From Comamonas sp. JUb58 (lineage in GTDB: Bacteria; Pseudomonadota; Gammaproteobacteria; Burkholderiales; Burkholderiaceae_C): 64,000 nt of DNA. A program made the position numbers and the translations under genes. Where the stretch lies: contig NZ_SOAL01000001.1 in NCBI RefSeq assembly GCF_004364775.1, positions 1-64,000 on the forward strand. The letters are read 5' to 3'. The notes below the pieces were generated by a model. It saw nothing but the letters and a program-made list of their open reading frames with translations. It did not search any database and had not been told where the DNA came from. The stretch's first letter is position 1; every line of letters begins with the position of its first letter. This document shows, piece by piece, positions 3,347 to 47,532 of the stretch.

Positions 3347-3421
3347 CTTGTCTCCTAAAAAATATCTGTTCTCAATACATGGCGGCAGTCTGCGCTGCGC
3401 CAGGGTTGCAAAAAGTTGGGC

Positions 3422-4922: not shown

Positions 4923-5244
4923 CGCACCGCTTCGCTGGAAAAAAGTGCGACGCCTTTCCTGGATGGAAATATACGTCGCTTCGATGCTGCCAATACTAGG
5001 AAAGAATACTGCAATGCAACACTGGGGAAAGCCTGTAGGTGAGGCTGCGTACGCGTTAACCCGTGGGCTTTATGCGCTCACTTTTTGATAGTCACCTGAG
5101 GGACAAGCGGTCGTCTTTTTGTCATCAAAATCAAGCATGGGCGACAATGTTAGCGCCCTGCTCCGCCCCCTCCATACGCGCTGTGCATCATGGAGGCGGC
5201 AGCATGCAAGCCAAGCTGGCTGCTGCTTAGGCGACAGAAGAGGC
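4923..5244. other. Intergenic region between livG and the DUF1178 gene
   Basis: 322 bp without a convincing gene. It separates the 5' end of the liv operon from the 3' end of the DUF1178 gene, so it should contain the liv promoter and the end of the nuo transcript. AT-richer sequence near 4970-5010 could hold a promoter, but no good -35/-10 pair is evident. An imperfect hairpin with arms CCTCCAT/ATGGAGG lies near 5170-5195 but has no T-tract. Open frames crossing it lack coding character. Confidence 0.5.
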
Positions 5245-5763
5245 TTATTGCAGACGGTGTTTGCTGGCTTCAGGCAGCAGCAGGGGCAGCACGTCGATGC
5301 CGTCATCGACGAGGGCGCGCTGCTCCTCCGGGGTGGCGGTGCCACGGATGGGCCGGACATCGACCTCGCCCTCATGCATCTGCCGGGCCAGGTCGGCAAA
5401 GCCGCTGCCCACATCGTCGGTATTGGCGATGACCTGGCGCGACAGCTCCAGCCAGGCCTGTTGCAGGCGCTGGGCATCGCTGAGCGGGTTATGAGGGGGC
5501 TGGGATGGCGAGGATGCCGCCGGCGCGCTGGCGGGCTGTGCAGGGGCTGCAGCAGATGAGGCCGGCGCAGCAGGCGCCGCCGGGGCCAGGGAATTGGATT
5601 TGCGCGCCAGATGCGGGGCGCTCAGGCCTTTGACGATCTCGTGCGAGTTGCACATCGGGCAGCTGAGCCAGCCCTGGCTTTGTTGCTGCTCGAAAGCGGC
5701 CTCCGAGGCGAACCAGCCCTCAAAGATATGGCCCAAAGGGCAGCGCAGGTTGAAAACCTTCAC
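5245..5763 (-). CDS. DUF1178 family protein
   Basis: 172-residue protein. The N-terminus MKVFNLRCPLGHIFEGWF and the motif CPMC (C35, C38) are diagnostic of DUF1178 and suggest a small zinc-ribbon-like metal site made with C8/H12. A low-complexity Ala/Pro/Ser linker occupies about residues 60-100. A conserved C-terminal half follows, with ANTDDVGSGFADLARQMHEGE. The function is unknown. The gene follows the DUF2818 gene by 4 bp and is probably the last cistron of the nuo transcript. This linkage to complex I is common in betaproteobacteria, but no mechanistic link can be read here. Confidence 0.88.
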   Translation of the reverse strand: MKVFNLRCPLGHIFEGWFASEAAFEQQQSQGWLSCPMCNSHEIVKGLSAPHLARKSNSLAPAAPAAPASSAAAPAQPASAPAASSPSQPPHNPLSDAQRLQQAWLELSRQVIANTDDVGSGFADLARQMHEGEVDVRPIRGTATPEEQRALVDDGIDVLPLLLPEASKHRLQ

Positions 5764-5767
5764 AGGC

Positions 5768-6094
5768 TTACCCCGCTCGGCTCACCTTGCGCAGCAGGTA
5801 CTGGTAGGCAAAACCGGGGAAGGCAAAGGTCAGGAACAAGGTGCCGGTGACGGCATAGAACTCCCAACCCTGGCTGCTGCGCTGGCCAGCACGGCCTTCA
5901 AGCAGCATCGCAAAGGCCCCGATGAGGAAGTACAGCACGACCAGCTCAACCAGGCGGATCCACAGTGCCTTGCTGGCACTGCCGCCGTCATGGCATACCG
6001 GCCCTGCGGCCAGGATGCGTTGATTCAGAAACGGAAGATTGGCCGCAACAAAGCCCGCCACGATCACCAGCCAAATGGATGCAGTGATAGACAT
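5768..6094 (-). CDS. DUF2818 family membrane protein
   Basis: 108-residue protein with three hydrophobic stretches: residues 6-22, about 48-66 and about 80-98. The N-terminus has the family pattern WLVIVAGFVAANLPFLNQR. It matches DUF2818, a small inner-membrane family found behind nuoN in Burkholderiales. It starts 31 bp after the nuoN stop. Its role is unknown. Position suggests an accessory or assembly factor of NADH dehydrogenase, but this rests only on gene order. Confidence 0.85.
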   Translation of the reverse strand: MSITASIWLVIVAGFVAANLPFLNQRILAAGPVCHDGGSASKALWIRLVELVVLYFLIGAFAMLLEGRAGQRSSQGWEFYAVTGTLFLTFAFPGFAYQYLLRKVSRAG

Positions 6095-6125
6095 GCGGGC
6101 TTTGCAGGGCTAAAGGTAGGACAGC

Positions 6126-7619
6126 TTAGCTGGCGAGCGCGCGCAGCACGGCGTCAGAGCACAGCTTCATCAGACCGCCGGGCATGATACCCAGGATCAG
6201 CACCAGCGCGCCATTGACGACCAGCACGGCACGCACGTCCAGAGGTGCATGCACCTTGGCGGCAGTGATGGGCTTGTCAAAGTACATGACCTTGACCACG
6301 CGCAGGTAGTAGAAGGCGCCGATCAGCGACATGATCACCGCAAACACAGCCAGCGCAATGTACAGGCCGCTGCCCGATGCCACCAGCGCCTGCAGCACGG
6401 CCAGCTTCGAGTAGAAGCCCACCAGCGGAGGAATACCAGCCATCGAGAACAGGCAGATCGCCATCACGCCAGCGTACAGCGGGCTGCGCTGGTTCAGACC
6501 GGCAAAGTCGGCGATCTCTTCGCTCTCGAAGCCTTCACGGGCCAGCAGCAGGATCACACCGAAGGTAGCCAGGGTGGTCAGCACATAGCTTACGACGTAG
6601 AACATCGAGGCGCTGTAGGCGTTGCCAGCGGTAGCCGCTTCGACATTGCCATTGACCACACCGGACATCAGACCCAGCAGCACAAAGCCCATTTGCGAGA
6701 TGGTCGAGTAGGCCAGCATGCGCTTGATGTTGGTCTGGGCGATAGCTGCCAGGTTACCGATCAGCAGCGAGAGGATGGCAAGCACGCCCAGCATCTGTTG
6801 CCAATCAAAGGCCAGCGGCAGCAGGCCGTCCACCAGCAGGCGGATCACGATGGCAAAGGCTGCCAGCTTGGGCGCGCCGCCCACGATCATGGTGATAGCC
6901 GTTGGTGCGCCTTGGTAGACGTCAGGCACCCACATGTGGAAAGGCACCACACCCAGCTTGAAGGCCAGACCAGCGACCACAAACACCAGACCGAAGACCA
7001 GCACCTGGTGGCGGATCAGGCCGGAGTTCACCGCCTTGAACACTTCACCAATATCGAGCGAACCCGTGGCACCGTAGATCATCGACAGGCCGTACAGCAG
7101 GAAACCCGACGCCAGGGCACCCAGCACGAAGTACTTCATGCCAGCTTCCACCGCAGCGTTGTTGTCACGGCGCAGGCAAACCAGCGCGTAGCTCGACAGG
7201 GTCAGCAGCTCCAGGCCCAGGTAGATGATCAGGAAGTTGTTGCCCGAGATCATCACGTTCATGCCCAGCAGCGCCAGCAGCGACAGGATGAAGTACTCAC
7301 CGCCCTTGAGCATGCCACGGTCACGCGAGTAACCACGGCCATACACCAGGGTCACGGCCATCGCGATGGCCGCAGCGCACTTGAGCCAGTTACCCATGGC
7401 GTCCGAGACGACCATGTTGCCAAAGGCGTAGAAGGTGTTGCCATTGGCGGCGTAGATACCGGTGATCACCGCCACGACCCCGAGGGTCAGCAGCGATAGC
7501 ACGTAGGTGAGCGTGCGGCCCGGGCTCTTGACGCCCAGGTCCACGAGGGTGATGACGCAGGCCATCACCAACAGCACGATTTCAGGATAGATAGCCAGCC
7601 AGCTGATGTTATCAATCAT
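6126..7619 (-). CDS. nuoN: NADH-quinone oxidoreductase subunit N
   Basis: 497-residue antiporter-like membrane subunit of complex I. It is hydrophobic throughout, consistent with about 14 transmembrane helices of the Mrp/NuoLMN family. Conserved charged positions in helices are visible, e.g. the Glu in [15 protein letters not shown] and the Lys in [21 protein letters not shown]. It contributes to proton translocation next to NuoK and NuoM. It is the last canonical gene of the nuoA-N operon, 27 bp behind nuoM. Length and sequence are normal for betaproteobacteria. Confidence 0.97.
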
Positions 7620-7646
7620 CTCAAGTCTCTCAATTCTGTCTGACCA

Positions 7647-9116
7647 TCACAGCTTGGACACGGCGACATGCTTGAGCAGGTCGGCTACCGAGGCACCCAT
7701 CACATCAGTGAACGGCGCGGGGTAGATACCCATGATCAGCACGGCAGCAGCCAAGATGCCCAGGATAAGGAATTCGCGGCAACCGATGTCCTTGAGCTCG
7801 CGCACATGGTCATTGGCGATGGGGCCGAAGTACACGCGCTTGTACATCCACAGCGTGTAGGCAGCGCCCAGAATCAGCGCGGTGGCCGACAGCACACCAA
7901 TCCAGAAGTTGAACTTGGTGGCGCCCAGGATCACCATCCACTCGCCGATGAAACCGGCGGTGCCTGGCAGGCCGCAGTTGGCCATCGCAAACAGCAGTGC
8001 AAAGGCAGCGAACTTGGGCATGGTGTTGACCACGCCGCCGTAGGCAGCGATATCACGCGAATGCACGCGGTCGTACAGCACGCCGATACACAGGAACATC
8101 GCGCCCGACACAAAGCCGTGGGCAATCATCTGCATCAGACCACCCATGACACCGATGTCATTGAAGATGAAGAAGCCCAGGGTCACAAAGCCCATGTGTG
8201 CGACGGACGAATAAGCCACGAGCTTCTTCATGTCCTTCTGCACAATCGCCACCAGACCCACATAGATCACAGCCACCAGCGACAGCGCGATGATGAGCCA
8301 GGCCCATTCGTGCGACGCATCAGGAGCGATGGGCATGGAGAAACGCAGGAAACCATAGGCACCCAGCTTCAGCATGATCGCGGCCAGCACGGCAGAACCA
8401 CCGGTAGGCGCTTCGACGTGAACGTCGGGCAGCCAGGTGTGGACCGGGAACATCGGCACCTTCACCGCAAATGCAGCGAAGAAGGCAAAGAAGATCAAGG
8501 TCTGCTCGGTCATCGTCAGCGGCAGCTGGTGCCAGGCCAGAATCTCGAAGCTACCGGCCTTGGTGTACAGGTACAGCAGTGCGATCAAGGTCAGCAGCGA
8601 ACCCATCAGGGTGTACAGGAAGAACTTGAAAGCGGCGTAGATGCGGTTCGGGCCGCCCCAGATACCGATGATCAGGTACATCGGGATCAGCGTGGCTTCG
8701 AAGAACACGTAGAACAGCAGACCGTCCAGTGCGGAGAACACACCGATCATCAGACCCGACAGGATCAGGAACGCACCCATGTACTGGTTCACGCGCTCGG
8801 TGATCGACTCCCAGGACGCCAGCACCACGATCACCGTGATGAAGGCGGTCAGTGGCACGAACCAGAAGGAGATGCCATCAACGCCTAGGTAGTAGTTGAT
8901 ACCGAAGCGTGGAATCCAGGACGCCTTCTCGACGAACTGCATCGCCGACGTACCCAGCTGGAAGCCGGTGTACAGCGGCAAGGTGACCAAGAGGCCTATC
9001 AGCGCACCGACCAGTGCGATCCAGCGCACCATCTTGGCTTGCTCCTGCTTGCCAAAGGCCAGCAGGACCGTACCAAAGACGATGGGCGTCCAAATTGCAA
9101 GACTCAACAATCCCAT
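7647..9116 (-). CDS. nuoM: NADH-quinone oxidoreductase subunit M
   Basis: 489-residue antiporter-like subunit of complex I. Diagnostic segments include YLGVDGISFWFVPLTAFI near the N-terminus, the Glu of FYVFFEATLIPMYLIIG, the Lys of FAAFAVKVPMFPVHTWLPD, and DMKKLVAYSSVAHMGFV. It forms a proton channel in the membrane arm between NuoN and NuoL. Its start codon follows the nuoL stop by 12 bp. Nothing is truncated or unusual. Confidence 0.97.
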   Translation of the reverse strand: MGLLSLAIWTPIVFGTVLLAFGKQEQAKMVRWIALVGALIGLLVTLPLYTGFQLGTSAMQFVEKASWIPRFGINYYLGVDGISFWFVPLTAFITVIVVLASWESITERVNQYMGAFLILSGLMIGVFSALDGLLFYVFFEATLIPMYLIIGIWGGPNRIYAAFKFFLYTLMGSLLTLIALLYLYTKAGSFEILAWHQLPLTMTEQTLIFFAFFAAFAVKVPMFPVHTWLPDVHVEAPTGGSAVLAAIMLKLGAYGFLRFSMPIAPDASHEWAWLIIALSLVAVIYVGLVAIVQKDMKKLVAYSSVAHMGFVTLGFFIFNDIGVMGGLMQMIAHGFVSGAMFLCIGVLYDRVHSRDIAAYGGVVNTMPKFAAFALLFAMANCGLPGTAGFIGEWMVILGATKFNFWIGVLSATALILGAAYTLWMYKRVYFGPIANDHVRELKDIGCREFLILGILAAAVLIMGIYPAPFTDVMGASVADLLKHVAVSKL

Positions 9117-9128
9117 TTTTCTTCTTCC

Positions 9129-11168
9129 TTACTTGTTGAGCAGCACGAAGTACGTCATGGCCAGGAAGATACCCAGAATCATGACCAATGCGTAGTGGTA
9201 CACATAACCCGTCTGCAGCCAGCGCACCAGAGCGGAGATGCGGCCAACGACCTTCCAGGAACCGTTGACGATCAGGCCATCGATCAGACCCTGGTCGCCC
9301 ACCTTCCAGAACACGCCGCCCAGCACGCGCGAGCCGCGGGCGAAGATGTTTTCGTAGACCCAGTCCACACCGTACTTGCCTTCCAGCGCCTGGTACAGGC
9401 CGACCTTCTCGCTCATGCGCTTGATGGCCGCAGGAATCTCAGGCTTGACCATGTAGAACACATAAGAGGTCACCACACCAGCCAGCGCCAACCAGAACGG
9501 CGCAGCGGTGAAGCCGTGCAGTGCCATCGGAATCCAGCCGTGGATCTTCTCGGCCAGCTCGGCCATTGCGCCGTGCTTGCTGCCATCCACATAGATGACA
9601 CCCTTGAAGAAATCACCGAACAGCATGGGCATCAGCGCGATCGCACCGATCACCACCGAAGGGATCGCCAGCAGCACCAGCGGCAGGGTCACCACCCAAG
9701 GCGACTCATGCGGCTTGGCATCGTGGCCATGGCCATGGTGGTCGTCATGACCATGGTGGTCATCGTGGTGGGCATCGGGGTTCTGGTCGTAGCGCTCTTT
9801 ACCGTGGAACACGATGAAGTACAGGCGGAACGAGTAGAACGCGGTGATGAACACACCAGCCAGCACGGCAAAGTTGGCAAAGCCGGCGGCAGGCAGGTTC
9901 GAGGCGTGTACCGCTTCGATGATCGCGTCCTTCGAGTAGAAGCCCGAGAAGAACGGCGTACCGATCAGCGCCAGGTTACCCAGCAGGAAGGTGATCCAGG
10001 TGATGGGCATGTACTTGCGCACGCCACCCATCCAGCGGATGTCCTGGTTGTGGTGCATGCCCATGATGACCGAGCCTGCGCCGAGGAACAGCAGTGCCTT
10101 GAAGAAGGCGTGCGTCATCAGGTGGAACACGGACACCGAGTAGGCCGACACGCCCAGCGCAATGGTCATGTAACCCAGCTGCGACAAGGTGGAGTACGCG
10201 ATCACGCGCTTGATGTCGTTCTGGATGATGCCCAGGATACCCATGAACAGCGCGGTGATCGAGCCGATCACGAGGATGAAGTTCAGCGCGGTATCGGACA
10301 GTTCATAGAGCGGCGACATGCGCGAGACCATGAAGATACCGGCGGTCACCATCGTGGCCGCGTGGATCAGTGCCGAGATGGGGGTAGGACCTTCCATCGA
10401 ATCGGGCAGCCAGGCATGCAGCGGGAACTGGGCCGACTTGCCCATCGCACCGATGAACAGGCAGATGCAGATCACCGTCATCAACGACCAGGTAGAACCT
10501 GGCAGGGTCATGCCGTTCAGTTCCTGGCTCTTGGCGAAGATTTCGGTGTAGTTCAGGGTGCCGGTGTAGGCAGCGATCAGGCCGATGCCCAGGATGAAGC
10601 CGAAGTCACCGACACGGTTGACCACGAAGGCCTTCATGTTGGCGAAGATCGCGGTTTCCTTCTTGAAGTAGAAACCGATCAACAGGTAAGACACCAGGCC
10701 CACTGCTTCCCAGCCGAAGAACAGCTGCAGCAGGTTGTTGCTCATCACCAGCATCAGCATGGAGAAGGTGAACAGCGAGATGTACGAGAAGAAGCGGTCG
10801 TAGCCTTCGTCTTCTTCCATGTAGCCCATCGTGTAGATGTGCACCATCAGCGACACGAAGGTCACCACGCACATCATCATCGCGGTGATGGAGTCGATCA
10901 GGAAACCGATCTCCATCTTCAGCGACCCGACGGTCATCCAGGTGTAGAGCGTCTGGTTGAAGGTCGCACCTTCAAACACCACGCTCTGGAACGTCATCGC
11001 AGAGATGACGAAGGCAATGAACACACCCAGGATGGTGAGCGTGCGGCTGCCAACGCGGCCGATGCGGTTACCGCCCAGGGCGGTGCCGAAAATGCCTGCC
11101 AGCAAAGATCCTGCCAGGGGCGCCAAAGGCACCGCCAACAGTGTTGAAGCAGAAAGGGTTTGACTCAT
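9129..11168 (-). CDS. nuoL: NADH-quinone oxidoreductase subunit L
   Basis: 679-residue distal antiporter-like subunit, which also carries the long lateral helix at its C-terminus. Typical motifs are WMTVGSLKMEIGFLIDSITA, FFGWEAVGLVSYLLIGFY and KSAQFPLHAWLPDSMEGPTPISALIHAATMV (the first two and the start of the last are the family hallmarks). A His/Asp-rich stretch at about residues 463-487 (HHDDHHGHDDHHGHGHD) lies in a loop between helices. Such inserts occur in Burkholderiales NuoL and are not essential features of the family. It sits between nuoK and nuoM in the operon. Confidence 0.97.
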   Translation of the reverse strand: MSQTLSASTLLAVPLAPLAGSLLAGIFGTALGGNRIGRVGSRTLTILGVFIAFVISAMTFQSVVFEGATFNQTLYTWMTVGSLKMEIGFLIDSITAMMMCVVTFVSLMVHIYTMGYMEEDEGYDRFFSYISLFTFSMLMLVMSNNLLQLFFGWEAVGLVSYLLIGFYFKKETAIFANMKAFVVNRVGDFGFILGIGLIAAYTGTLNYTEIFAKSQELNGMTLPGSTWSLMTVICICLFIGAMGKSAQFPLHAWLPDSMEGPTPISALIHAATMVTAGIFMVSRMSPLYELSDTALNFILVIGSITALFMGILGIIQNDIKRVIAYSTLSQLGYMTIALGVSAYSVSVFHLMTHAFFKALLFLGAGSVIMGMHHNQDIRWMGGVRKYMPITWITFLLGNLALIGTPFFSGFYSKDAIIEAVHASNLPAAGFANFAVLAGVFITAFYSFRLYFIVFHGKERYDQNPDAHHDDHHGHDDHHGHGHDAKPHESPWVVTLPLVLLAIPSVVIGAIALMPMLFGDFFKGVIYVDGSKHGAMAELAEKIHGWIPMALHGFTAAPFWLALAGVVTSYVFYMVKPEIPAAIKRMSEKVGLYQALEGKYGVDWVYENIFARGSRVLGGVFWKVGDQGLIDGLIVNGSWKVVGRISALVRWLQTGYVYHYALVMILGIFLAMTYFVLLNK

Positions 11169-36630: not shown

Positions 36631-36646
36631 CTGTACATATATACAG
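36631..36646 (+). promoter_or_regulatory. LexA (SOS) box of imuA-imuB-dnaE2
   Basis: CTGTACATATATACAG is an almost perfect match to the proteobacterial SOS box CTGT-N8-ACAG. It ends 9 bp before the imuA start codon and overlaps the -10-like TATACT (36627-36632). LexA binding there would shut the promoter until DNA damage. Confidence 0.92.
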
Positions 36647-37465: not shown

Positions 37466-38882
37466 GGCCGCCAGCGCCGCGCCCAGCGCCAACATGCAAG
37501 GCCTGGCGCTGTGGGCGCAGCAGTTCACGCCGCGCCTGGCCTGCGTGCCCTCGGACAGTGTCTTTGGCGATGCGCTGGTGCTGGAGCTCTCAGCCAGCGA
37601 GCGCCTGTTTGGCGGCCGCCAGCAGCTGGCCCGGCGCCTGCTGCGCGAAAGCCGGCAGCTGGGCGTGCAGGCCATCGGCTGGGCCCCCACCAGCCTGGCC
37701 GCCATTGCGCTGGCACGCTGCGGCATCCGCCACGGCATGGGCCATCCGCTGCCCCAGGTGCTGGCGCCCCTGCCCTTGCAGGCCATCGATGCGGTGGCCC
37801 GCCATGCCGAGCTGCTGAGCCAGCTGGGCTGCCAGAGCCTGGGCGCTGTGCATGCGCTGCCCCGGGGCGCGCTGGCCCGGCGCATGGATACGGGCATCTT
37901 GAAAGCCCTCGACCAGGCCCATGGCCTGCTGCCCGACCGCTACCCCTGGATCAGCCTGCCTGCCCGCTTTGATGCCCGGCTGGAGCTGCCCATGCGCATC
38001 GACCAGGCCGATGCGCTGATGCATGGCGCGCGCCACCTGCTACTGCAGCTGTGCGGTTGGCTGGCGGCGCAGCGTGCCGGCGTGCGCAGCTTTCGGCTGT
38101 GCTGGTGCCATGATGCGATGCGCTCCCGCCATGTGGGCGATGGCGGCGAGCTGACCATCCACACCGCCAGCACCACGCGCGATCTGCAGCACCTGTGCCG
38201 CCTGCTGCAAGAGCACCTGGCCCATGTGGAGCTGCAAGCCCCCGTGGGTGAGCTGAGCCTGCATGCCGATGCGCCCGAAGCGCTGCAAGAGCGCAGCGCC
38301 AGCCTGCTGCCCGACAAAACCGCTGATGATGAAAGCCTGGAGCAGGTGCTGGAGCGCATCACCGCCCGCCTGGGCGCCGACCAGGTGCAGCGCCCGCTGC
38401 TGCGGCCCGACCACCGCCCCGAGTGGCAGGTGCAGTGGCTGCCCGCGCAACCGGCCGGCAAGGCCAAGGCCGCCCCGCCCTCGGCGTTGCCACCCCTTCC
38501 GCAACCCAGCTTCCTGCTGCCCACGCCGCTGCAACTGCTGCAAGACAGCCAAAGCCGGCCGCTCTACCACGGCCCCTTGCAATTGCTTCTGGGCCCGCAG
38601 CGCATTGAAGGCGGCTGGTGGCACCGCAGTCCTGGCTTTTTGCCAGTGAGCGATGCGGATGGAGACACTCACACCGATGAGGCAGCAATCAACATCGGTC
38701 ACAGCGACCACGGCGATCACCGCGAAAGCCCGCCCAAGCCCGCTCCCCTCTCCCAAACCGCCCACACCGCACTGCGCGATTACTGGGTCGCCCACAGCAC
38801 CCATGCCGGCCTGCTGTGGATTTTTCATACCCGGCTGTCTGCCCACAGCAGCGCCTGGTTTTTGCACGGCCGCTTTGCCTGA
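37383..38882 (+). CDS. imuB: Y-family DNA polymerase-like protein ImuB
   Basis: 499-residue catalytically inactive Y-family polymerase homologue acting as the hub of the ImuA-ImuB-DnaE2 mutasome. The start is ATG 37383 (MTPIWAALLPQLP), matching the usual N-terminus. The Asp that begins the Pol IV active site is replaced in this strand, and the later acidic pair is replaced in VLELSASERLFGG. The fingers/little-finger region and a C-terminal extension ending in LHGRFA follow. A beta-clamp-binding motif cannot be pinned down by eye. It overlaps imuA by 83 bp and precedes dnaE2 by 24 bp. Confidence 0.93.
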   Translation: MTPIWAALLPQLPCPAASAPSHPACSTEAASAAPSANMQGLALWAQQFTPRLACVPSDSVFGDALVLELSASERLFGGRQQLARRLLRESRQLGVQAIGWAPTSLAAIALARCGIRHGMGHPLPQVLAPLPLQAIDAVARHAELLSQLGCQSLGAVHALPRGALARRMDTGILKALDQAHGLLPDRYPWISLPARFDARLELPMRIDQADALMHGARHLLLQLCGWLAAQRAGVRSFRLCWCHDAMRSRHVGDGGELTIHTASTTRDLQHLCRLLQEHLAHVELQAPVGELSLHADAPEALQERSASLLPDKTADDESLEQVLERITARLGADQVQRPLLRPDHRPEWQVQWLPAQPAGKAKAAPPSALPPLPQPSFLLPTPLQLLQDSQSRPLYHGPLQLLLGPQRIEGGWWHRSPGFLPVSDADGDTHTDEAAINIGHSDHGDHRESPPKPAPLSQTAHTALRDYWVAHSTHAGLLWIFHTRLSAHSSAWFLHGRFA

Positions 38883-38906
38883 GCCGCGCTGCATCCTGCT
38901 TGCACC

Positions 38907-41900
38907 ATGGCCACGCGCCCTCCCCTCCCCATCCCCGACTACGCCGAGCTGTGGTGCCTGAGCAATTTCAGCTTTCTGCGCGGCGCCAGCCACCCGCATG
39001 AGCTGGTCGAGCGCGCCCATGCCCAGGGCTACCGCGCGCTGGCGCTGACCGATGAATGCTCGCTCGCCGGCATCGTGCGCGCCCATGTCGCCGCGCGTGA
39101 CTGCGGGCTGCCGCTGATCGTGGGCGCACAGTTCGAGGTGCAGCCCACCGATGCAGCCGCGCCCGCCTTCACCCTGGTGGCACTGGCCTGCAACCTGCAT
39201 GGCTATGGCAACCTCTGCGCCCTCATCACCCAGCTGCGGCGCAAATCACCCAAGGGCAGCTATGCACTGGCGCAGTCGGCCATCCACCCGCGCGCGCTGC
39301 AAGACTGCCTGCTGCTGCTGGCCCCCAGCCGCCAGGCCAACCCGGCGCAGATCCAGGCCCAGGCCGCCTGGCTGCAGCAGCACTTTACCGGCCGCTGCTG
39401 GCTGGCCGTGCAGCTGGACCGCAGCCTGGGCGACGAGGCCTGGCTGGCGCAGATGCGAGCGGCGGGCAGCAGCAGTGGCGCGCCGCTGGTAGCTGCCGGC
39501 AATGTGCACATGCATGTGCGCTCGCGCAAGCCCATGCAGGATGTGCTGACCGCCATCCGCCTGCGCACACCGCTGACCGACTGCGGCTACGCGCTGCAGC
39601 CCAATGCCGAGCAGCACCTGCGCAGCCGGCTGCGGCTGGCGCAGATGTACCCGCCTGACCTGCTGGAGGCTAGCCTGGGCATTGCAGCGCGTTGCCAGTT
39701 CTCGCTGACCGAGCTGCGCTACCAGTACCCCGACGAGGTGGTGCCGCCTCAGCTCACGCCAGCAGCCTACTTGCGCCAGCTCAGCTACGAAGGGGCAGCG
39801 CGCCGCTGGCCGCAAGGCACGCCGCCGAAAGTGCAGGCCACCTTGGAGAAAGAGCTGGCCCTCATCTCCGAGCTGCAGTACGAGCACTACTTTCTGACCG
39901 TCTACGACATCGTGCGCTTTGCCCGCAGCAAGAACATCCTCTGCCAGGGCCGGGGCTCGGCCGCCAACTCGGCGGTCTGTTTTTGCCTGCAGATCACCGA
40001 GGTCGATCCGGACAAGACCCGGCTGCTGTTCGAGCGCTTCATCAGCAAGGAGCGCAACGAGCCGCCCGATATCGATGTGGACTTTGAGCATGCCCGGCGC
40101 GAAGAGGTCATCCAGTACCTGTACAAGAAATACGGCCTGCACCGCGCCGGCCTCACCGCCGTGGTCATCCGCTACCGGCGCAAATCCGCGATCCGCGATG
40201 TGGCCAAGGCGCTAGGCTTTGCACTGCCCAGCATCGATCTGCTGGCACGCGACCATTCGCGCTGGGACGACGAACTGCTGCGGGCCGAAGCGCTGGCCCA
40301 GTGTGGCCTGCAGGCGGGCGACCTGGCCGTGCGCCAACTGCAGGAGCTGGTCGAGACCCTGCGCGATTTTCCGCGCCACCTGTCCCAGCATGTGGGCGGT
40401 TTTGTGCTCACGCGCGGCCCGCTCTCGCGCATCGTGCCGATCGAGCGCGCCAGCATGGAGAACCGCACCGTCATCCAGTGGGACAAGGACGACCTCGATG
40501 CCGTCGGCCTGCTCAAGGTGGATGTGCTGGCGCTGGGCATGCTCACCGCACTGCAGAAAATGCTGCACCTGGTGGGCGCACGCCAGGGCCGCAGCTTTGC
40601 GCTGGGCGATATCCCGCACGGAGACACCGCCACCTACGACATGATCTGCGCGGCCGACACCATCGGCGTCTTCCAGATCGAGAGCCGCGCCCAGATGAGC
40701 ATGCTGCCACGCTTGCGGCCGCGAACGTTCTACGACCTGGTGATCGAGGTCGCGCTGGTGCGGCCCGGCCCTATCCAGGGCGGCATGGTCCACCCCTATC
40801 TGCGCCGCCGCCAGGGACTGGAAAAAATCCAGTACGAAAGCGAGCTGCTGCGCCCGGCACTGGAGCGCACCCTGGGCGTGCCCATCTTCCAGGAACAGGT
40901 GATGCAGATCGCCATCGATGCGGCCGGTTTCAGCGCCGGCGAGGCCGACCAGCTGCGCCGCTCGATGGCCGCCTGGCGCCGCACCGGCAACCTGCAAAAG
41001 TACTACGACAAGATCATCAATGGCATGACCGGCAACGGCTACTCGCAGGCCTTTGCCGAATCGATCTTTCAGCAGATCCAGGGCTTTTCGGAATACGGTT
41101 TTCCTGAGAGCCATGCCGCCAGCTTTGCGATCCTGGTGTACTTCAGCGCCTGGATCAAATGCCACTACCCGGCCGAGTTTCTGGTGGCCATGGTCAACAG
41201 CCAGCCGCTGGGCTTTTACAGCAACAGCCAGCTGATCCAGGATGCCAAGCGCCATGGCGTGCAGGTACTGCCCGTCGATGTGATGCACAGCGGCATGGAT
41301 TGCAATACCGAAGCCGCCAGCGGCCCCCACCCCGCCGTGCGCCTGGGCCTGCGCCTGGTCAAGCAGCTGCAGCAGACGCAAGTCGAGCGCCTGCTGCAGG
41401 CCCGCAGCGCCGCCCCTTTTGACAGCGCCCAGGACCTGGCCCGCCGCGCCCAGCTCGATGCCCCGGCGATGAAGTACCTGGCCGCCGCCGATGCCCTGGC
41501 CAGCCTAGAAGGCCACCGCCGCAACCAGCTCTGGCATGCCTCCGCGCCGCTGCACCACAGCCGCCTGCTGCGCGCAGCCCCCATCGATGAGGAAGAGCTG
41601 CAACTGCCCGCCGCCAGCGAGCAGGAAGACATCCACTGGGACTACGCCTCGCTGGGCCTGAGCCTGCGCTGCCACCCCATGGCCTTGCTGCGCGAACGCC
41701 TGCAGCGCCACCGCTTCCAAACCCAGGCCGAGCTGCGCGAAGCCCGCGACGGCAGCTGGGTGCGCGCCTGCGGCATCGTCACCCTGCGCCAGCAACCGCC
41801 CACCGCCAAGGGCGTCGTCTTTATCACCCTGGAGGATGAAACCGGCAACCTGCAAGTCATCTGCTGGCCCCAGCTGCGCAGCGCCCAGCGCGATGCCCTG

Positions 41901-42035
41901 CTGCATTCCCAGTTCCTTGCTGTGCAAGGCCGCTGGCAGCGCAGCGGTGAGGTGGGCAACTTGATTGCGCACCAGCTGCGGGATGTGTCGGACTGGTTTG
42001 AGAGTTTGCGGATTCGGAGCCGGGATTTTCGGTGA
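38907..42035 (+). CDS. dnaE2: Error-prone DNA polymerase III alpha subunit DnaE2
   Basis: 1042 residues. The N-terminal PHP domain begins YAELWCLSNFSFLRGASHP, with LALTDECSLAGIVRA. The C-family palm carries the catalytic acidic cluster in PPDIDVDFEHARREEVIQY near residue 385. Helix-hairpin-helix and OB-fold parts lie towards the C-terminus (GVVFITLEDETGNLQVICW). It copies damaged DNA inaccurately after SOS induction, under ImuB guidance. Last gene of the LexA-controlled cassette. Its 72-bp 3' end is repeated at 43485-43556. Confidence 0.96.
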   Translation: MATRPPLPIPDYAELWCLSNFSFLRGASHPHELVERAHAQGYRALALTDECSLAGIVRAHVAARDCGLPLIVGAQFEVQPTDAAAPAFTLVALACNLHGYGNLCALITQLRRKSPKGSYALAQSAIHPRALQDCLLLLAPSRQANPAQIQAQAAWLQQHFTGRCWLAVQLDRSLGDEAWLAQMRAAGSSSGAPLVAAGNVHMHVRSRKPMQDVLTAIRLRTPLTDCGYALQPNAEQHLRSRLRLAQMYPPDLLEASLGIAARCQFSLTELRYQYPDEVVPPQLTPAAYLRQLSYEGAARRWPQGTPPKVQATLEKELALISELQYEHYFLTVYDIVRFARSKNILCQGRGSAANSAVCFCLQITEVDPDKTRLLFERFISKERNEPPDIDVDFEHARREEVIQYLYKKYGLHRAGLTAVVIRYRRKSAIRDVAKALGFALPSIDLLARDHSRWDDELLRAEALAQCGLQAGDLAVRQLQELVETLRDFPRHLSQHVGGFVLTRGPLSRIVPIERASMENRTVIQWDKDDLDAVGLLKVDVLALGMLTALQKMLHLVGARQGRSFALGDIPHGDTATYDMICAADTIGVFQIESRAQMSMLPRLRPRTFYDLVIEVALVRPGPIQGGMVHPYLRRRQGLEKIQYESELLRPALERTLGVPIFQEQVMQIAIDAAGFSAGEADQLRRSMAAWRRTGNLQKYYDKIINGMTGNGYSQAFAESIFQQIQGFSEYGFPESHAASFAILVYFSAWIKCHYPAEFLVAMVNSQPLGFYSNSQLIQDAKRHGVQVLPVDVMHSGMDCNTEAASGPHPAVRLGLRLVKQLQQTQVERLLQARSAAPFDSAQDLARRAQLDAPAMKYLAAADALASLEGHRRNQLWHASAPLHHSRLLRAAPIDEEELQLPAASEQEDIHWDYASLGLSLRCHPMALLRERLQRHRFQTQAELREARDGSWVRACGIVTLRQQPPTAKGVVFITLEDETGNLQVICWPQLRSAQRDALLHSQFLAVQGRWQRSGEVGNLIAHQLRDVSDWFESLRIRSRDFR

Positions 42036-42037
42036 GG
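41966..42037 (+). repeat. Direct repeat, copy 1 (3' end of dnaE2)
   Basis: The last 70 bases of dnaE2 plus 2 bp recur as copy 2 at 43485-43556, in the same orientation, with 4 mismatches in 72 (about 94 percent identity). The two copies bracket 1.45 kb of AT-richer DNA. Confidence 0.9.
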
Positions 42038-42108
42038 GTGTTGCGCTTAGCCAGTTGGATTCGCAATTGGCAAGCCATACAGTCGTGTGCTGCTACGGTG
42101 TTGACTCT

Positions 42109-42894
42109 TTACTGGTTTTCCTCACCAGAATGAGGTGACGACTTTAACGACTGGAGCTTCATCAAGACATTGTTCAGTTCTACGCCGATGTTTACAGTCA
42201 GCGGCTGAATTCGATCATGCTCCTTCCGCATGAAATCACGAGCATCGGTTCTTAAAAATAATTCTCCCGCATACCAGAACGACTCCAAAAAAAGAACCCA
42301 CTTCTCTTTCCTTCTGCCAGTAGCGTCCTCATTCAGTTCTGAGCGAACGATGCTGCGGTGCTTGACAGTATTAGTCAAGGCACTAAGGTATTTGTAGTCA
42401 TCGCCAGTCGTAATCTCTTGGAACAATCTACAGAGCTTGTCATACTCCGGATGCCCGGCGTCGTGCTGCTGCTCTAGTAACTTAAGGACTTCCTTGGCAT
42501 TGATGTCTCGCTCTCTGAGCGGCTTTGGAATCGTATCCAAGGCCAAAGCGTAATAGAGCATGTGAGAACAGGTGTCCGACACTGCATGCAAACTCTGCAC
42601 AAATGCAGCGATATTTGCCCTGATTTTCAGCATTAGGTGACTGAACTCACCGTACTCATCGTAAACACCCCAGATACCTGTCTCTTCTAGCTTTGATTCG
42701 ATGTACTCACTCATCATGCCCAAGGCCTCATGGTAGTGATAGCGGCAGAATTCGGGTCTATCCGTCATGGACCTTACGCTAGGATGCGCCTTCTTCCACT
42801 GAACTGGACCAAATATTGCAGCTACCAATTCTCCGGTCAATCCGATGTCCCATGTGGGATTTTTTTCATATTCAGCTTTAGAATTTTCGACCAT
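42109..42894 (-). CDS. Hypothetical protein in AT-richer islet
   Basis: 261 residues, soluble, mixed alpha-helical, with no recognised domain. A notable segment is ALTNTVKHRSIVRSEL near residues 175-190; an N..KHR pattern also occurs in some HEPN-like helical proteins, but this is too weak to assign. The likely start is ATG 42894 behind AGGA; a TTG five codons upstream is the alternative. Base composition is clearly more AT-rich than the surrounding genes, and codon use is mixed. It lies in the islet between the dnaE2 3'-end repeats, suggesting acquisition from elsewhere. Functions such as defence are possible but unsupported. Confidence 0.7.
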   Translation of the reverse strand: MVENSKAEYEKNPTWDIGLTGELVAAIFGPVQWKKAHPSVRSMTDRPEFCRYHYHEALGMMSEYIESKLEETGIWGVYDEYGEFSHLMLKIRANIAAFVQSLHAVSDTCSHMLYYALALDTIPKPLRERDINAKEVLKLLEQQHDAGHPEYDKLCRLFQEITTGDDYKYLSALTNTVKHRSIVRSELNEDATGRRKEKWVLFLESFWYAGELFLRTDARDFMRKEHDRIQPLTVNIGVELNNVLMKLQSLKSSPHSGEENQ

Positions 42895-43021
42895 TTTTCC
42901 TACATCCAAGCGAGCAGACTCTAAACTTTTATTCTTCAGCTAACTTTAGTTATTAGAACGCAATGGTGCTCCGCTGAATGCCGTACAGTAAGTCCAATCG
43001 CACCCAACCAAAGGCTCTATT

Positions 43022-43351
43022 TTGAAAATTCCATGCCGCTGTGGTGCTCTCATTGTTGACAGCACCGACAATTTATCCCACAAAGCCCATTTAATGCCCG
43101 ATCAAAGTCGGTTTGGCGCGCTTGATGCGATCGACGAGGAAGTCATCGACCCGATTGCCAATGGCAAATTGAGCAAGGACGACGCATACATGCGCGCGCG
43201 ATGCATCCTCCAGGCCTCCACACGAACGATGTGGCAGTGTCGGTCTTGCGCAAGGTTGTTCATCAACGCACAAGATGGCTCACTGCACTGCTTCACACCC
43301 GAAGATGCAAACACCGACAAAGACATTCTTGCCTTGGACATGAGCCAGTAG
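43022..43351 (+). CDS. Conserved hypothetical protein with Cys-pair ends
   Basis: 109 residues. The N-terminus KIPCRCG and the later TMWQCRSCARLFI give four cysteines in two CxC/CxxC pairs, consistent with a small zinc-binding domain. Between them lie the AHLMPDQSRFGALDAIDEEV and GKLSKDDAYMRARC regions. Proteins with the pattern KIPCxCG...DQ...MWQCxxCGRL recur as uncharacterised proteins in Proteobacteria. The start is TTG 43022 (AAAGG seven bases upstream); no ATG fits the N-terminal Cys pair. It is divergent from the neighbouring islet gene. Confidence 0.7.
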   Translation: MKIPCRCGALIVDSTDNLSHKAHLMPDQSRFGALDAIDEEVIDPIANGKLSKDDAYMRARCILQASTRTMWQCRSCARLFINAQDGSLHCFTPEDANTDKDILALDMSQ

Positions 43352-43444
43352 CTGCATGAACGCATCGCTACTGCGTTCGGCCACCGGCCTTAACTCAGGA
43401 GTGAAGAATAACGCACGAATACCAGCGCTTTGCATTGCCCGCAA

Positions 43445-43495
43445 CTTGGTAGCGCAGTAGACGGCGGCAGTCGGAAACACCCCATGCGCACCAGC
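43445..43495 (-). pseudogene. Short SDR gene fragment
   Basis: Seventeen codons on the minus strand read AGAHGVFPTAAVYCATK, matching GAHAVSPTAAVYCATK of the SDR gene at 45770-46504 at both protein and DNA level. The segment includes the SDR catalytic YxxxK. No continuous SDR similarity is seen on either side. Its right end overlaps the dnaE2 repeat copy by 11 bp, suggesting an illegitimate recombination junction. Confidence 0.7.
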
Positions 43496-43556
43496 TGCGG
43501 GATGTGTCAGACTGGTTTGACAGCCTGCGGATTCGGAGCCGGGATTTTCGGTGAGG
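43485..43556 (+). repeat. Direct repeat, copy 2 (dnaE2 3'-end remnant)
   Basis: It encodes the last 21 residues of DnaE2 (HQLRDVSDWFDSLRIRSRDF plus Arg) and a stop codon, with one Glu-to-Asp change. It has no upstream polymerase sequence. It marks the right border of the islet inserted behind dnaE2. Confidence 0.88.
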
Positions 43557-43603
43557 AGGAGTGCTGCGAAGCAACGCCGCTGTCTTACCGTACCCGTCGC
43601 AGA

Positions 43604-44839
43604 TCAGTGGCCCACCACCGCCGTATTGGATACGCGGTGGCCCGATGGGAAGCCTTGGGAGCGCGCCCACCAAGCCATCCCGAAGCCGACCAGCAGCAGC
43701 GCCAACGCGGCCCAAGGTAGAGCGCCCGCCCCTTGGATTTCCAAAATGACGCCACCCAGAATCCCACCGCCGGCAATGGCGCTGTTCCAAGCCACCACAT
43801 TCATGGACAAGGCCACATCCGCGCCCTCGCCAGCCGTATCAGCCAAGGCGGTCTGCAACAACGTAGCCGCACCACCAAAGGTGAGGCCCCAAATGGCCAC
43901 CCCGGCATAGACAAGCCAGGCGGACGCGCCCCATAGCCCCAAGGCCAGAGCCGTCAGCGCGAAGGTCGCCAGGCTGACCAGCACTGCGGCGCGCAGGCAG
44001 CGATCCACCAGCCGTCCGACGATCCAGATGCTCAGCAGTGCCGCGACGCCGAACACCAGGAGCACGAGATCCACGTGACCCGCCAAACCGGCCAGTGCCG
44101 AAAACGGTGCCACGTACGTATACAAGAGGTTGTGTGCCAGCATCCAGGCGATCACCACAGCCAGCACAGGGCGGACGCCTGGCGTTGTAAATACCTTGCG
44201 CAATGGCATCGTTTCGCGACCTGACTGACCTGGATAGTCAGGCACCTTCCGCTGCACCCAGACGATCAGTGCCAAGGTCAGCAAAGACATGATGCCGAAA
44301 GCAGTGCGCCAACCTACGAGCGCGCCCAGCCAGGTGCCCACAGGCACGCCCAGCGACAGTGCAATGGGCGTTCCCACCATGGCAATGGCCATTGCGCGGC
44401 CCTGCAGATGCGGCGCGACCATCCGGCGCGCATAGCCAGCCAACAGGCTCCAGGCCAGTCCGGCAGCCATGCCCGCGCAGAAGCGAGAAGCCAAGGTCAG
44501 CCAGTAGTTCGAAGACAACGCCGTCAGGGAGTTGAAGGCCAGAAAACCGACGATGGTCAGCAGCAGCACGTTGCGTCGCCGCCAGCCACGGGTGGCGATG
44601 GTCAGGGGAATCGCTGCCAGCAGTGAGCCCAGCGCATAAGCGGTGATCATTTGCCCCGCGAGCGCCTGCGACACGCCAAGCCCTTCGCTGATCTGCGGCA
44701 AAAGGCCCGCAGGCAAGGTCTCCGTCACGATGCAGATAAACCCCGTCATGGCGAGCGCCAGTAGCGCGGATATCGGCAGCCTCTCAGCAGCTGCTGGCGG
44801 TGTGTGCGCCTCGGGTGGGTGCCAGGTCGTCTTAGTCAT
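43604..44839 (-). CDS. MFS efflux transporter (DHA1, sugar/drug efflux type)
   Basis: 411 residues with 12 hydrophobic helices. The first helix has TGFICIVTETLPAGLLPQI and the region around residue 65 has QMITAYALGSLLAAIPLT, typical of the AraJ/YdeA/NepI-like DHA1 exporters, along with RFCAGMAAGLAWSLLAGYA. It probably exports a small toxic or sugar-like compound; the substrate is unknown. It is divergent from a TetR-type gene 219 bp away, its likely repressor. It lies 47 bp right of the dnaE2 remnant. Confidence 0.88.
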   Translation of the reverse strand: MTKTTWHPPEAHTPPAAAERLPISALLALAMTGFICIVTETLPAGLLPQISEGLGVSQALAGQMITAYALGSLLAAIPLTIATRGWRRRNVLLLTIVGFLAFNSLTALSSNYWLTLASRFCAGMAAGLAWSLLAGYARRMVAPHLQGRAMAIAMVGTPIALSLGVPVGTWLGALVGWRTAFGIMSLLTLALIVWVQRKVPDYPGQSGRETMPLRKVFTTPGVRPVLAVVIAWMLAHNLLYTYVAPFSALAGLAGHVDLVLLVFGVAALLSIWIVGRLVDRCLRAAVLVSLATFALTALALGLWGASAWLVYAGVAIWGLTFGGAATLLQTALADTAGEGADVALSMNVVAWNSAIAGGGILGGVILEIQGAGALPWAALALLLVGFGMAWWARSQGFPSGHRVSNTAVVGH

Positions 44840-44966
44840 CGAAAGGATTCCGTGTGAGAAGTTGAGGTGGGATAAAAGCTGCGTCGAGGACGCGCCCGCT
44901 GAAGATGAGCGTGCCCCGGGCGGGTCAGGTCGGTGGATCAGCCATCGCCGGCGCTTCGATTTATAT

Positions 44967-45032
44967 ATCGATTGGTATAAATGTAGCGAATCCTGGACGC
45001 CCTTGTCAACGACTTTTGTATCGATTAGTATT
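44967..45032. promoter_or_regulatory. Repeated operator-like motif between MFS and TetR genes
   Basis: TATCGATTGGTAT (44967-44979) and TATCGATTAGTAT (about 45020-45032) are direct repeats with 12 of 13 identical positions, 53 bp apart. The first lies in an ATTTATA/TATAAAT dyad. The second overlaps the -10 (TAGTAT) of a TTGTCA-17-TAGTAT promoter for the TetR gene. They fit binding sites of the TetR protein controlling both directions. Confidence 0.6.
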
Positions 45033-45769: not shown

Positions 45770-46504
45770 TCAATGCGGGCTCACCGTAGGCCGCATGATG
45801 ATCTCACTGGTATCCACATCCGCCGGTTGCGAAATCGCAAAATGGATGGCCCTTGCGATCGCCGATGCGCTGATGGCCACTTTGCGAAACTCCTTCATCT
45901 CTTCACGGCCAGCGGCATCGGTGATGGTCTCCGCCAGCTCCGACTCCGTCACCCCGGGACTGATCGTGGTCACACGGATGTCGCGGCTTTCCTGCCGCAG
46001 CCCTTCCGAAATCGCCCAGACCGCGTACTTGGTAGCGCAGTAAACGGCGGCGGTTGGCGACACCGCATGCGCGCCGATGGAGGCGATGTTCACGACATGC
46101 CCAAAGCCCTGCTGGCGCATGGTGGGCAACACCGCCGCAATGCCGTGCAGCACACCGCGAATGTTCACATCGATCATCCAGTCCCACTCCTCCACCCGCA
46201 ATGCGGCAAGCGGTGACAGCGGCATCACGCCGGCGTTGTTGATGATGGCATCGATGCACCCATAGCGATTCAGCGCATGGTCGGCAAAGGCCTGCAGCTG
46301 CGCACGCTGGGTCACATCCAGCGCCAGCGCTTCGGCCACACCGCCTGCGTTCTGGATATCGGCCACGATCTGGCCCAGTTTGTCGACCCGGCGGGCGCCC
46401 AGCACGACGGTGGCGCCGTGCGCGGCCAGCAGCTTGGCGGTGGCCTCACCGATACCGCTGCTGGCACCGGTGATCAAAATGACTTTGTCGAGCAAGTTTT
46501 TCAT
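45770..46504 (-). CDS. SDR family NAD(P)-dependent oxidoreductase
   Basis: 244-residue classical short-chain dehydrogenase. Cofactor loop TGASSGIG at about residues 11-18, NNAGVMPLSPL near 87, catalytic Ser in VNIASIGAHAV near 140, and Tyr/Lys in AAVYCATKYAVW near 155. The start is ATG 46504 (MKNLLDKVILITG); the frame stays open to 46699, but the extra part is not SDR-like. Many close relatives are annotated as oxidoreductases of unknown substrate and are induced by redox-active compounds. It is divergent from a LysR gene. Confidence 0.9.
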   Translation of the reverse strand: MKNLLDKVILITGASSGIGEATAKLLAAHGATVVLGARRVDKLGQIVADIQNAGGVAEALALDVTQRAQLQAFADHALNRYGCIDAIINNAGVMPLSPLAALRVEEWDWMIDVNIRGVLHGIAAVLPTMRQQGFGHVVNIASIGAHAVSPTAAVYCATKYAVWAISEGLRQESRDIRVTTISPGVTESELAETITDAAGREEMKEFRKVAISASAIARAIHFAISQPADVDTSEIIMRPTVSPH

Positions 46505-46588
46505 GGAGAACTTTCTGCACATGGCGTTGGAAAGTTCAAACTGTAGGCAGCTTGGCTTGATCAGAGAAGTGTGCCAATGCTGCACAAT

Positions 46589-46609
46589 TTGGTTAGACTT
46601 TCTAACCAA
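46589..46609. promoter_or_regulatory. LysR-type palindrome at the start of the LysR gene
   Basis: Perfect inverted repeat of TTGGTTAGA and TCTAACCAA around CTT, ending on the A of the LysR start codon. Arms of this kind (T-N11-A type) are typical LysR autoregulatory sites. Binding there could occlude the start of the gene. Confidence 0.7.
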
Positions 46610-47532
46610 TGAAAGACGAACTTCACTTGCTCCACTGCTTTTTGGCGGTGGCCAAAGCGCAAAACTTCCGTGCTGCTGCCGACCAGCTGGGCGTGACACG
46701 CTCTGCCGTCAGCCAGGCCATGCGCAAGCTGGAGGACCAACTGGGCATCGCCCTGGTCCACCGCACCACCCGCCATGTGCGCCTGACCGAGGCCGGCCAG
46801 ACGCTGCACCAGCAAATCAGTGGGCCTTTGGCTGCTGTGCAAGTGGCACTTGAAGAAGTATCCGAAGAAGGCCCGGCGCGCGGGCTGCTGCGCGTGGCGG
46901 TCACCTCCATCGCCGAGCGCTTTCTGTCCGGCCCCTTGATCAGCGCCTTTGCCGCCGCCCACCCGCATATCACCTTGGATGTCACCGTCACCGATGACGA
47001 ATCCGACATCATTGCCGGTGGCTTTGATGCCGGCCTGCGCCTCGGTGAAGTCATCGAGCAGGACATGATCGCCATCCCGCTGACGGGGTCGCAACGGCAG
47101 GTGGTCGTCGCCACCCCTGCCTACCTGTCTGCACAGGGAACGCCCCAACACCCCAATGACCTGCTGAGCCACCGCTGCATCGGCTGGCGTGCCGAGCTGG
47201 AGCTCGCCCCCTACCGCTGGGAATTCCAGGAAGACAGCCGTGATTTCAGCCTCGCGGTCGCCCCCCGTGTCACCACCAACGACATGCTGCTGATGGTGCG
47301 CACCGCGCTGGCCGATGGCGGCATCACCATCGGCATGGAAGAGACCTTTGCGCCCTACCTGGAACGCGGAGAGCTGGTCTCGGTGCTGGACAGCTACCTG
47401 CCCTACTTTCCCGGCTTTTACCTCTACTACCCCAACCGCAGAAACCAGCCGCGCAAGTTAAGGGCCTTGGTGGAGCATGTGAAACGGTGGGTGCCGGTGG
47501 CTGGGTCTTTGCCCGGGTCCACGGCAAGTTAA
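46609..47532 (+). CDS. LysR family transcriptional regulator
   Basis: 307 residues. HTH at about residues 18-37 (AAADQLGVTRSAVSQAMRKL), followed by a LysR substrate-binding domain with RGLLRVAVTSIAERFLSGPL. It belongs to the group often found beside SDR genes (YafC/PecT-like or DsdC/CrgA-type). It is divergent from the SDR gene and the start codon is covered by a 21-bp palindrome, so autoregulation and control of the SDR gene are likely. Effector unknown. Confidence 0.9.
   Translation: MKDELHLLHCFLAVAKAQNFRAAADQLGVTRSAVSQAMRKLEDQLGIALVHRTTRHVRLTEAGQTLHQQISGPLAAVQVALEEVSEEGPARGLLRVAVTSIAERFLSGPLISAFAAAHPHITLDVTVTDDESDIIAGGFDAGLRLGEVIEQDMIAIPLTGSQRQVVVATPAYLSAQGTPQHPNDLLSHRCIGWRAELELAPYRWEFQEDSRDFSLAVAPRVTTNDMLLMVRTALADGGITIGMEETFAPYLERGELVSVLDSYLPYFPGFYLYYPNRRNQPRKLRALVEHVKRWVPVAGSLPGSTAS

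Follow-up and report, generated by a model that had tools for sequence, protein, structure and literature searches.

A small islet behind dnaE2 in Comamonas sp. JUb58, bracketed by a duplicated gene end, may be a fossil of one-sided recombination

In a window of 64,000 nucleotides from Comamonas sp. JUb58 (positions 1 to 64,000 of contig NZ_SOAL01000001.1, assembly GCF_004364775.1; the window refers to this whole stretch), a small islet with two genes lies directly behind dnaE2, which encodes an error-prone polymerase. The islet is bracketed by two copies of the dnaE2 3' end. Comparison with close relatives confirmed that the DNA behind dnaE2 is a variable slot, and base differences between the two copies suggest that the end of the present dnaE2 probably came with the islet, such that the right copy is probably the old native tail. 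The islet looks like the outcome of a known kind of one-sided recombination event rather than a new mobile element. The likely routes are homology-facilitated illegitimate recombination (HFIR) and the single crossover of a trimmed circle, both of which are treated in the available part of an Escherichia coli study (PMC3240628).

The two copies of the direct repeat are 72 bp long, are identical at 68 of these positions, and have a start-to-start distance of 1519 bp (Table 1). The left copy is the end of dnaE2, and the stop codon is contained in both copies. The G + C content is about 0.43–0.55 between the copies, compared with 0.57–0.72 in the preceding DNA (38000–41900) and 0.60–0.66 behind the islet (43550–44750); farther to the right, it falls to 0.54–0.56 near 45000 and 46500. 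These coordinates and G + C values confirm what a previous reading of the sequence alone (hereafter the sequence-only reading) had described, namely a repeat with four mismatches that keeps the dnaE2 stop codon and surrounds AT-richer DNA with two uncharacterised genes. These genes, here called gene A and gene B, are intact open reading frames (ORFs). Gene A has 266 amino acids when read from the TTG start of the listed ORF and 261 when read from ATG. A search of the same genome (G000) with the islet found, at E ≤ 0.001, nothing elsewhere except a 49-bp segment of an SDR dehydrogenase gene. The corresponding scrap in the islet has 86% identity to this segment and 89% identity over 47 bp to the SDR gene of another Comamonas genome, G019. 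The part of the scrap at 43444–43484, which was absent from the sequence-only reading, stands directly against the right repeat copy. A scan of 41500–44900 against Rfam gave a single, sub-threshold match, and the predicted RNA fold of 43350–43420 had a z-score of -0.74.

Among the 53 genus genomes searched (G000 included), 27 were matched somewhere by a 3040-bp query. The slot was read through in five close genomes (G019, G015, G021, G029, and G040) with dnaE2 sequences 92–96% identical to that of the window, and these were compared together with G000 as a set of six genomes, one per species. G019 represents the empty site, with one dnaE2 tail that is directly followed by MFS, TetR, SDR, and LysR DNA. 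Because the empty site exists in another genome of the genus, the repeat-bracketed islet is not a product of chance. In G015 (Comamonas koreensis; locus L033), a gene B relative and a 459-amino-acid ORF are found between dnaE2 and SDR, and in G021 (locus L034) the same interval holds a 496-amino-acid ORF with lectin-like, Ig-like, and IPTL-CTERM matches. The SDR gene of the window corresponds to the other border of the variable slot in these two genomes. G040 (locus L063) has a different MFS gene and a LysR-like gene behind dnaE2. Finally, G029 (locus L035) is the only other genome read that has gene A DNA beside dnaE2. Its dnaE2 is followed by 336 bp of islet DNA, about 265 bp of which come from gene A, and then by a decayed second dnaE2 tail that matches the right copy of the window at 56 of 72 positions; gene B and most of gene A are absent. 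A T5orf172 protein gene and an MFS gene follow, after which the gene order returns to that of G040.

This comparison of the dnaE2 3' flank, which had been proposed together with the sequence-only reading, found different DNA there in the six close genomes. The same islet diverging vertically at the same position, one of two possibilities that had been named as counterevidence, is not borne out, since close relatives differ behind dnaE2. For the mobile cargo slot that had been suggested, the variable DNA and the empty site in G019 support the slot, whereas the mobile element finds no such support, as no integrase, fixed core, or mobile form was found. In three other genomes of the genus, G007, G042, and G050, the same place is collinear over approximately 10 kb (G007 and G042 are nearly identical to each other), so the variability of this slot is not a general property of dnaE2.

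Second dnaE2 tails were also searched for more widely. In the genus, 34 of the 53 genomes matched the last 149 amino acids of dnaE2. Matches ending at about residue 120–125 were not counted as dnaE2, and the loci of G022 (match 1–137) and G041 (match 2–133) were left out. The 19 loci read, that of G000 included, have a match reaching the C-terminus or nearly so, although G006 offers only 378 bp downstream of dnaE2. A second tail is present in two of the 19. A further set of 12 loci contains three genomes already counted; one of the other nine (L045) has a tail copy, and three of these nine (L037, L046, and L047) had less than 1.8 kb downstream. L045 is from a Rhodoferax metagenome-assembled genome, in which two copies of a 723-bp segment from the dnaE2 end (98% identity, including 594 bp of exact identity) lie on either side of a BrnT toxin gene. 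This duplication is either recent or an assembly artefact.

The bases that differ between the two copies suggest which of them is probably foreign. At 42002, 42005, and 42006, the right copy of the window has C, C, and C, the same as G019, G040, G015, G021, and the right copy of G029. The left copy has G, T, and T in the window and G, C, and T in G029. The combination of 42002G and 42006T occurs in both tails that abut gene A DNA and in none of the six others, both right copies included (Fisher's exact test, P = 0.036, with tails that are not independent). Moreover, the right copy continues into MFS-to-LysR DNA that is about 91% identical to that of the empty-site genome G019. The sequence-only reading had taken the right copy for a likely import from a related strain; with its relatives' bases at three positions and its native flank, this assignment is disfavored.

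The distribution of private bases may point the same way. Among the 38 private bases of the window's dnaE2, eight fall in the last 170 bp, where 2.06 are expected, and the densest 170-bp interval (nine sites) begins at 41837. Permutation gave P = 0.0012 for the tail (0.0004 with variable sites only) and P = 0.017 for the best interval (0.026 with variable sites only). The other five genomes have 0–3 private bases in the last 170 bp, with 1.0–3.9 expected. The private bases of the window reach upstream of the repeat to 41837, and a crossover within the repeat would not be expected to produce this.

The two junctions of the islet have different characters. On the left, the junction between dnaE2 and gene A is common to the window and G029, and the alignment of their intergenic DNA scored better than 500 of 500 shuffles. 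On the right, the scrap enters the right copy at CATGCGCACC; the corresponding sequences are CATGCGCGCC in the SDR gene and (T/C)GCGCACC in dnaE2. The SDR gene and dnaE2 share microhomology at 43485, which consists of an exact GCGC, or TGCGC if the recipient had T, within a near-match of 7–8 bases. The right junctions of the two genomes differ, with the SDR scrap joined to the tail in the window and the gene A interior joined to the tail in G029. The G029 join lies about 8 bp farther upstream in dnaE2 (approximately 6980–6990 of L035) and has about 1 bp of microhomology. One-sided recombination predicts this pattern, with a homologous side that is shared and non-homologous sides that differ.

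We give roughly even chances to the explanation that the islet is a fossil of such one-sided recombination, by HFIR or a very similar route. The donor would have been a linear fragment from a related strain that already had gene A, gene B, and a truncated SDR gene behind its dnaE2. After entering the cell, one end of this fragment would have recombined homologously with the resident dnaE2, possibly near 41837, and replaced approximately the last 200 bp of that gene. The other end would have undergone an illegitimate join to the resident dnaE2 at a point 69 bp short of the last base of the stop codon. The cargo would then lie between the donor tail on its left and the native tail on its right, and these two tails would form the 72-bp direct repeat. 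The empty site, the allele polarity, the private-base cluster, the SDR scrap with its microhomology, the shared left and differing right junctions, and the lack of a dnaE2 tail in the searches of viral contigs, plasmids, and phages make this the best explanation. As in HFIR, the islet has one homologous end and one join at microhomology, and most HFIR junctions in the E. coli study, as far as its available part goes, have 3–10 bp of microhomology (PMC3240628). Unlike in HFIR, there is no loss of recipient DNA beyond approximately 130 bp replaced inside dnaE2, and the flank continues directly after the right copy. HFIR is thus a likely route for an islet that works like its products, and the islet is not filed as a proven member because it lacks the usual recipient deletion and no donor was found.

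Several points weigh against this explanation. The polarity is based on two to three sites and on two genomes that bear the islet, and the private-base cluster is only moderately significant. G029 has no such cluster (three sites, with 3.9 expected), and in G021, a genome without gene A, the densest interval is nearby (six sites from 41795, with 1.74 expected per 170 bp), such that part of the effect may reflect local variability of the dnaE2 end. Independent illegitimate joins do not predict right junctions as close as those of G000 and G029, which are no more than about 8 bp apart in dnaE2, and the microhomology at the latter is short. Because the SDR scrap is only 49 bp long, the donor SDR gene must have been broken beforehand, and no convincing match was found for the adjoining DNA at 43375–43443. 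In addition, 56 of 60 E. coli clones were assigned to the trimmed circle and four to HFIR, and the available text describes HFIR products as generally carrying a recipient deletion similar in size to the insert (PMC3240628); such a deletion is not seen here.

The trimmed circle would yield the same architecture by a single crossover, inside the 72 bp, of a re-circularised fragment in which the cargo and the SDR scrap were accompanied by a short dnaE2 tail. In the E. coli study, as far as available, duplications of part of the homologous end (109–950 bp) were ascribed to this type of event; the 56 clones gave a polymerase chain reaction product of such partial duplications, and 14 were sequenced (PMC3240628). 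The bases within the repeat also fit a circle, as the right copy has 41990A in its front half and C, C, and C in its back half. However, a circle predicts native dnaE2 upstream of the left repeat, and the private bases at 41837–41961 oppose this, with the reserve about G021 given above. We regard this route as possible and rather doubtful. An older insertion elsewhere, which later spread among strains by ordinary double homologous recombination at dnaE2 and neighboring genes and had its right side trimmed by deletions, appears unlikely. Such a history agrees with the exchange of the interval from dnaE2 to the SDR end in G015 and G021 and with the lack of gene B and most of gene A in G029, and many hotspots without mobile elements show recombination at flanking core genes, according to the part of a hotspot study that is available (PMC5635113). 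Against it, the MFS flank on the right is as in G019, such that a homologous crossover on the right would have had to lie within the 72 bp, or farther on in a donor that shares this flank, and the full donor order was found in no genome searched.

The two remaining alternatives are considered less probable. An integrase-type island at the dnaE2 3' end, with the 72 bp as its att site and an integrase that was lost or acted in trans, could explain why dnaE2 stays intact and why the right junctions of two genomes lie so close together; a distant gene A relative (26% identity) is also located directly behind a gene annotated as integrase in Pseudomonas phage vB_PstS-pAN. As the sequence-only reading had noted, no integrase is present: the two islet ORFs matched neither an integrase nor a transposase family in the libraries searched. 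The inner right ends differ, and the length of the duplication varies (about 72 bp in G000, about 80 bp in G029, and 723 bp in L045). No dnaE2 tail was found on mobile DNA, as no viral contig contains an exact match to a 26-mer of the tail, and a BLASTN search with 41800–42060 (261 bp) gave no match in 72,556 plasmid records (E 1e-5) or 50,697 phage records (E 0.1). The private-base cluster upstream of the repeat also argues against an island. The insertion at a gene 3' end that had been read from the repeat is therefore not sustained as an integrase-type event, and with no integrase, constant core, or attP-like tail, the integrase island was rejected as the principal explanation and is considered highly improbable. 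A simple local duplication of the dnaE2 tail, with cargo captured later between the copies, could draw on the dnaE2-end fragments that stand behind dnaE2 in a few other genomes, and both copies of the window have T at 41966, where the rest have C. However, the copies should then be each other's closest relatives, and the right copy instead has the bases of the relatives at 42002, 42005, and 42006; the SDR scrap would also demand an additional event. This second possibility named as counterevidence does not explain the repeat alleles, is disfavored by allele polarity and the native flank, and has almost no weight in our assessment.

In the family, the dnaE2 search matched 293 of the 399 genomes. 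From the matches listed, 100 loci were taken by score (some genomes are represented twice), each with an open frame of about 1000 amino acids or more and enough contig behind it. A same-strand match to the last 900 bp of dnaE2 within approximately 9 kb downstream was found in 13 of the 100 loci at E < 1e-3 and in four at E < 1e-8, or three when L152 is dropped for its 48-bp match that recurs on the other strand. These three loci, L164, L187, and L206 (in G170, G102, and G190, respectively), have decayed and partly mosaic fragments of the dnaE2 C-terminus approximately 0.6–2.6 kb behind dnaE2. Of 276 control ORF tails from the same loci, five had a match at E < 1e-8; L122 and L127, in which neighboring genes are alike over 690–900 bp, account for four of these. 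The excess of dnaE2 fragments over controls is not significant (Fisher's exact test, P = 0.44 against 5/276 and P = 0.059 against 1/276). When a match at E < 1e-3 had to come within 60 bp of the gene end, four of 276 controls and one of 100 dnaE2 loci (L187) qualified. Among ten further loci with short dnaE2-like frames, three contain split near-full genes (L225, L228, and L230) and seven contain C-terminal dnaE2 fragments (L221–L224, L226, L227, and L229). In L226 (G101), the orphan fragment is found beside genes for an HsdM-type methylase and a large serine recombinase.

With tail fragments in no significant excess over control ORF tails, a dnaE2-specific hot spot across the family, as the sequence-only reading had envisaged, is not shown. 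It is improbable in our view that the dnaE2 3' end is a recurrent, integrase-free landing place for cargo in Comamonadaceae, at which foreign DNA anchors in the end of an SOS polymerase gene, the tail it brings replaces the old one and keeps the gene functional, and a scrap of the old tail stays behind. If this were true, the nearly coincident junctions of G000 and G029, the Rhodoferax BrnT islet, and the three decayed fragments would be traces of one repeated process.

The islet resembles several known systems in part. Insertion with long target duplication was reportedly recognized by Nobusato et al. in 2000, in Gene 259:99, by comparing related genomes. To our knowledge, no transposase or integrase takes part in it. 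In the available parts of the sources, it concerns restriction-modification genes, mainly in Helicobacter pylori (PMC1643837, PMC3031569, PMC2749054). The islet shares with these cases an uninterrupted target in a relative (G019), long target repeats on both sides, duplications of variable length, and the lack of an integrase or transposase. It differs in that the cargo consists of a phage/plasmid gene of unknown function and a cassette-like gene, and in that the incoming copy is apparently the left one. Tyrosine-recombinase islands at gene 3' ends duplicate the gene end and keep the gene intact. The same is observed for dnaE2, but there is no integrase, no constant length or inner junction, and no mobile form was found. 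As in the integrase-free hotspots described in the available part of PMC5635113, variable cargo lies between conserved flanks in close relatives; unlike in those hotspots between core genes, the right join here is not homologous. Among the titles listed in literature searches, none concerned this site or competence in Comamonas.

The gene dnaE2 is the last gene of an operon of the imuA-imuB-dnaE2 type, if the gene names are those we take them to be. The sole perfect LexA-type box (CTGT-N8-ACAG) in the window, CTGTACATATATACAG at 36631–36646, is located directly before the first ORF of this operon (36656), a position consistent with SOS control of the operon. LexA-type sites with one mismatch are found inside gene A (42353) and gene B (43047), and such sites are no commoner in the window than expected by chance (17 found, 22.8 expected). 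Gene A is transcribed toward dnaE2 and gene B is located farther on, so a dnaE2 transcript would reach them only as antisense for gene A or by long read-through for gene B. The proposed activation of the cargo by the same SOS state is thus unsupported by the sequence, as gene A opposes dnaE2 and the perfect box stands only before imuA.

Gene A belongs to phrog_37823, a family of unknown function, and had no match in Pfam, NCBIfam, or PADLOC. It is rare, being present in four of the 399 family genomes and three of the 53 genus genomes (own included in both). Relatives occur in 36 plasmid records, 34 of which are from Xanthomonas and 28 of which are predicted to be conjugative. An Acidovorax plasmid relative (57% identity) adjoins Mor, GemA, and Gam genes of a Mu-like prophage, and a relative on an IMG/VR contig (76% identity) likewise adjoins Mor and GemA genes; the search of viral contigs found this kind of relative once with the protein of the window and none with three other queries. 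In G380, HsdS and an AAA protein flank the relative within a restriction cluster (1794–8902 of L090). These settings, together with the phage relative mentioned above, make it plausible that gene A is a defense or exclusion gene. An alignment of eight members has 15 invariant columns, including W15, N175, K178, and H179. No relative with a solved structure was found, and the all-helical AlphaFold model built from two sequences (mean predicted local distance difference test score 44.8) was too poor for a fold search.

Gene B has relatives in three of the 53 genus genomes and three of the 399 family genomes (own included). Its matches in Pfam are weak and below the cut-off, and no relative was found in viral contigs. 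In G308, the relative is located near an IntI-type integrase with one ORF between them (4962–7313 of L091); this integrase matches IntI4 in the Protein Data Bank with E = 1e-82. The G308 relative is flanked by attC-like sites that were recognized by eye only and were not flagged by a simple pattern, and it is probably an integron cassette. The same pattern, which missed those sites in G308, found no attC at gene B of the window.

Table 1. Coordinates of the islet, its surroundings, and the features of two other loci (positions refer to the window unless a locus is named).
Feature	Position	Strand	Basis
dnaE2, error-prone polymerase, 1042 amino acids	38907–42035	+	ORF and relatives; ends in the left repeat copy
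Possible donor tract at the dnaE2 end (private-base cluster ending in 42002G/42006T)	41837–42006	+	Private-site counts
Left repeat copy, present dnaE2 tail, probably incoming with the islet	41966–42037	+	Alignment, alleles
Gene A, 261 amino acids from ATG, phrog_37823	42109–42894	-	ORF
Gene B, 109 amino acids, CxC...CxxC protein	43022–43351	+	ORF
SDR gene scrap, overlapping the right copy by the junction microhomology	43444–43492	+	Match to 46027–46075
Right repeat copy, probably the native dnaE2 tail left as a remnant	43485–43556	+	Alignment, alleles
MFS transporter, native flank, directly behind dnaE2 in empty-site G019	43604–44839	-	Library match, relatives
SDR dehydrogenase, native flank, source family of the scrap	45770–46699	-	Library match, relatives
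L045 (Rhodoferax), duplication copies; BrnT gene	2904–3626, 4690–5412; 3655–3972		Sequence comparison
L226 (G101), dnaE2 C-terminal fragment, HsdM-type methylase gene, large serine recombinase	7983–8510, 5226–7682, 9499–11088

Taken together, these findings describe a well-preserved islet whose sequence reveals the direction of an integrase-free insertion, with a probably foreign gene end, a possible start of the homologous side, and the microhomology that closes the other side. Foreign DNA between two copies of a gene end does not in itself point to an integrase, and the imported copy can be the one that now completes the functional gene.

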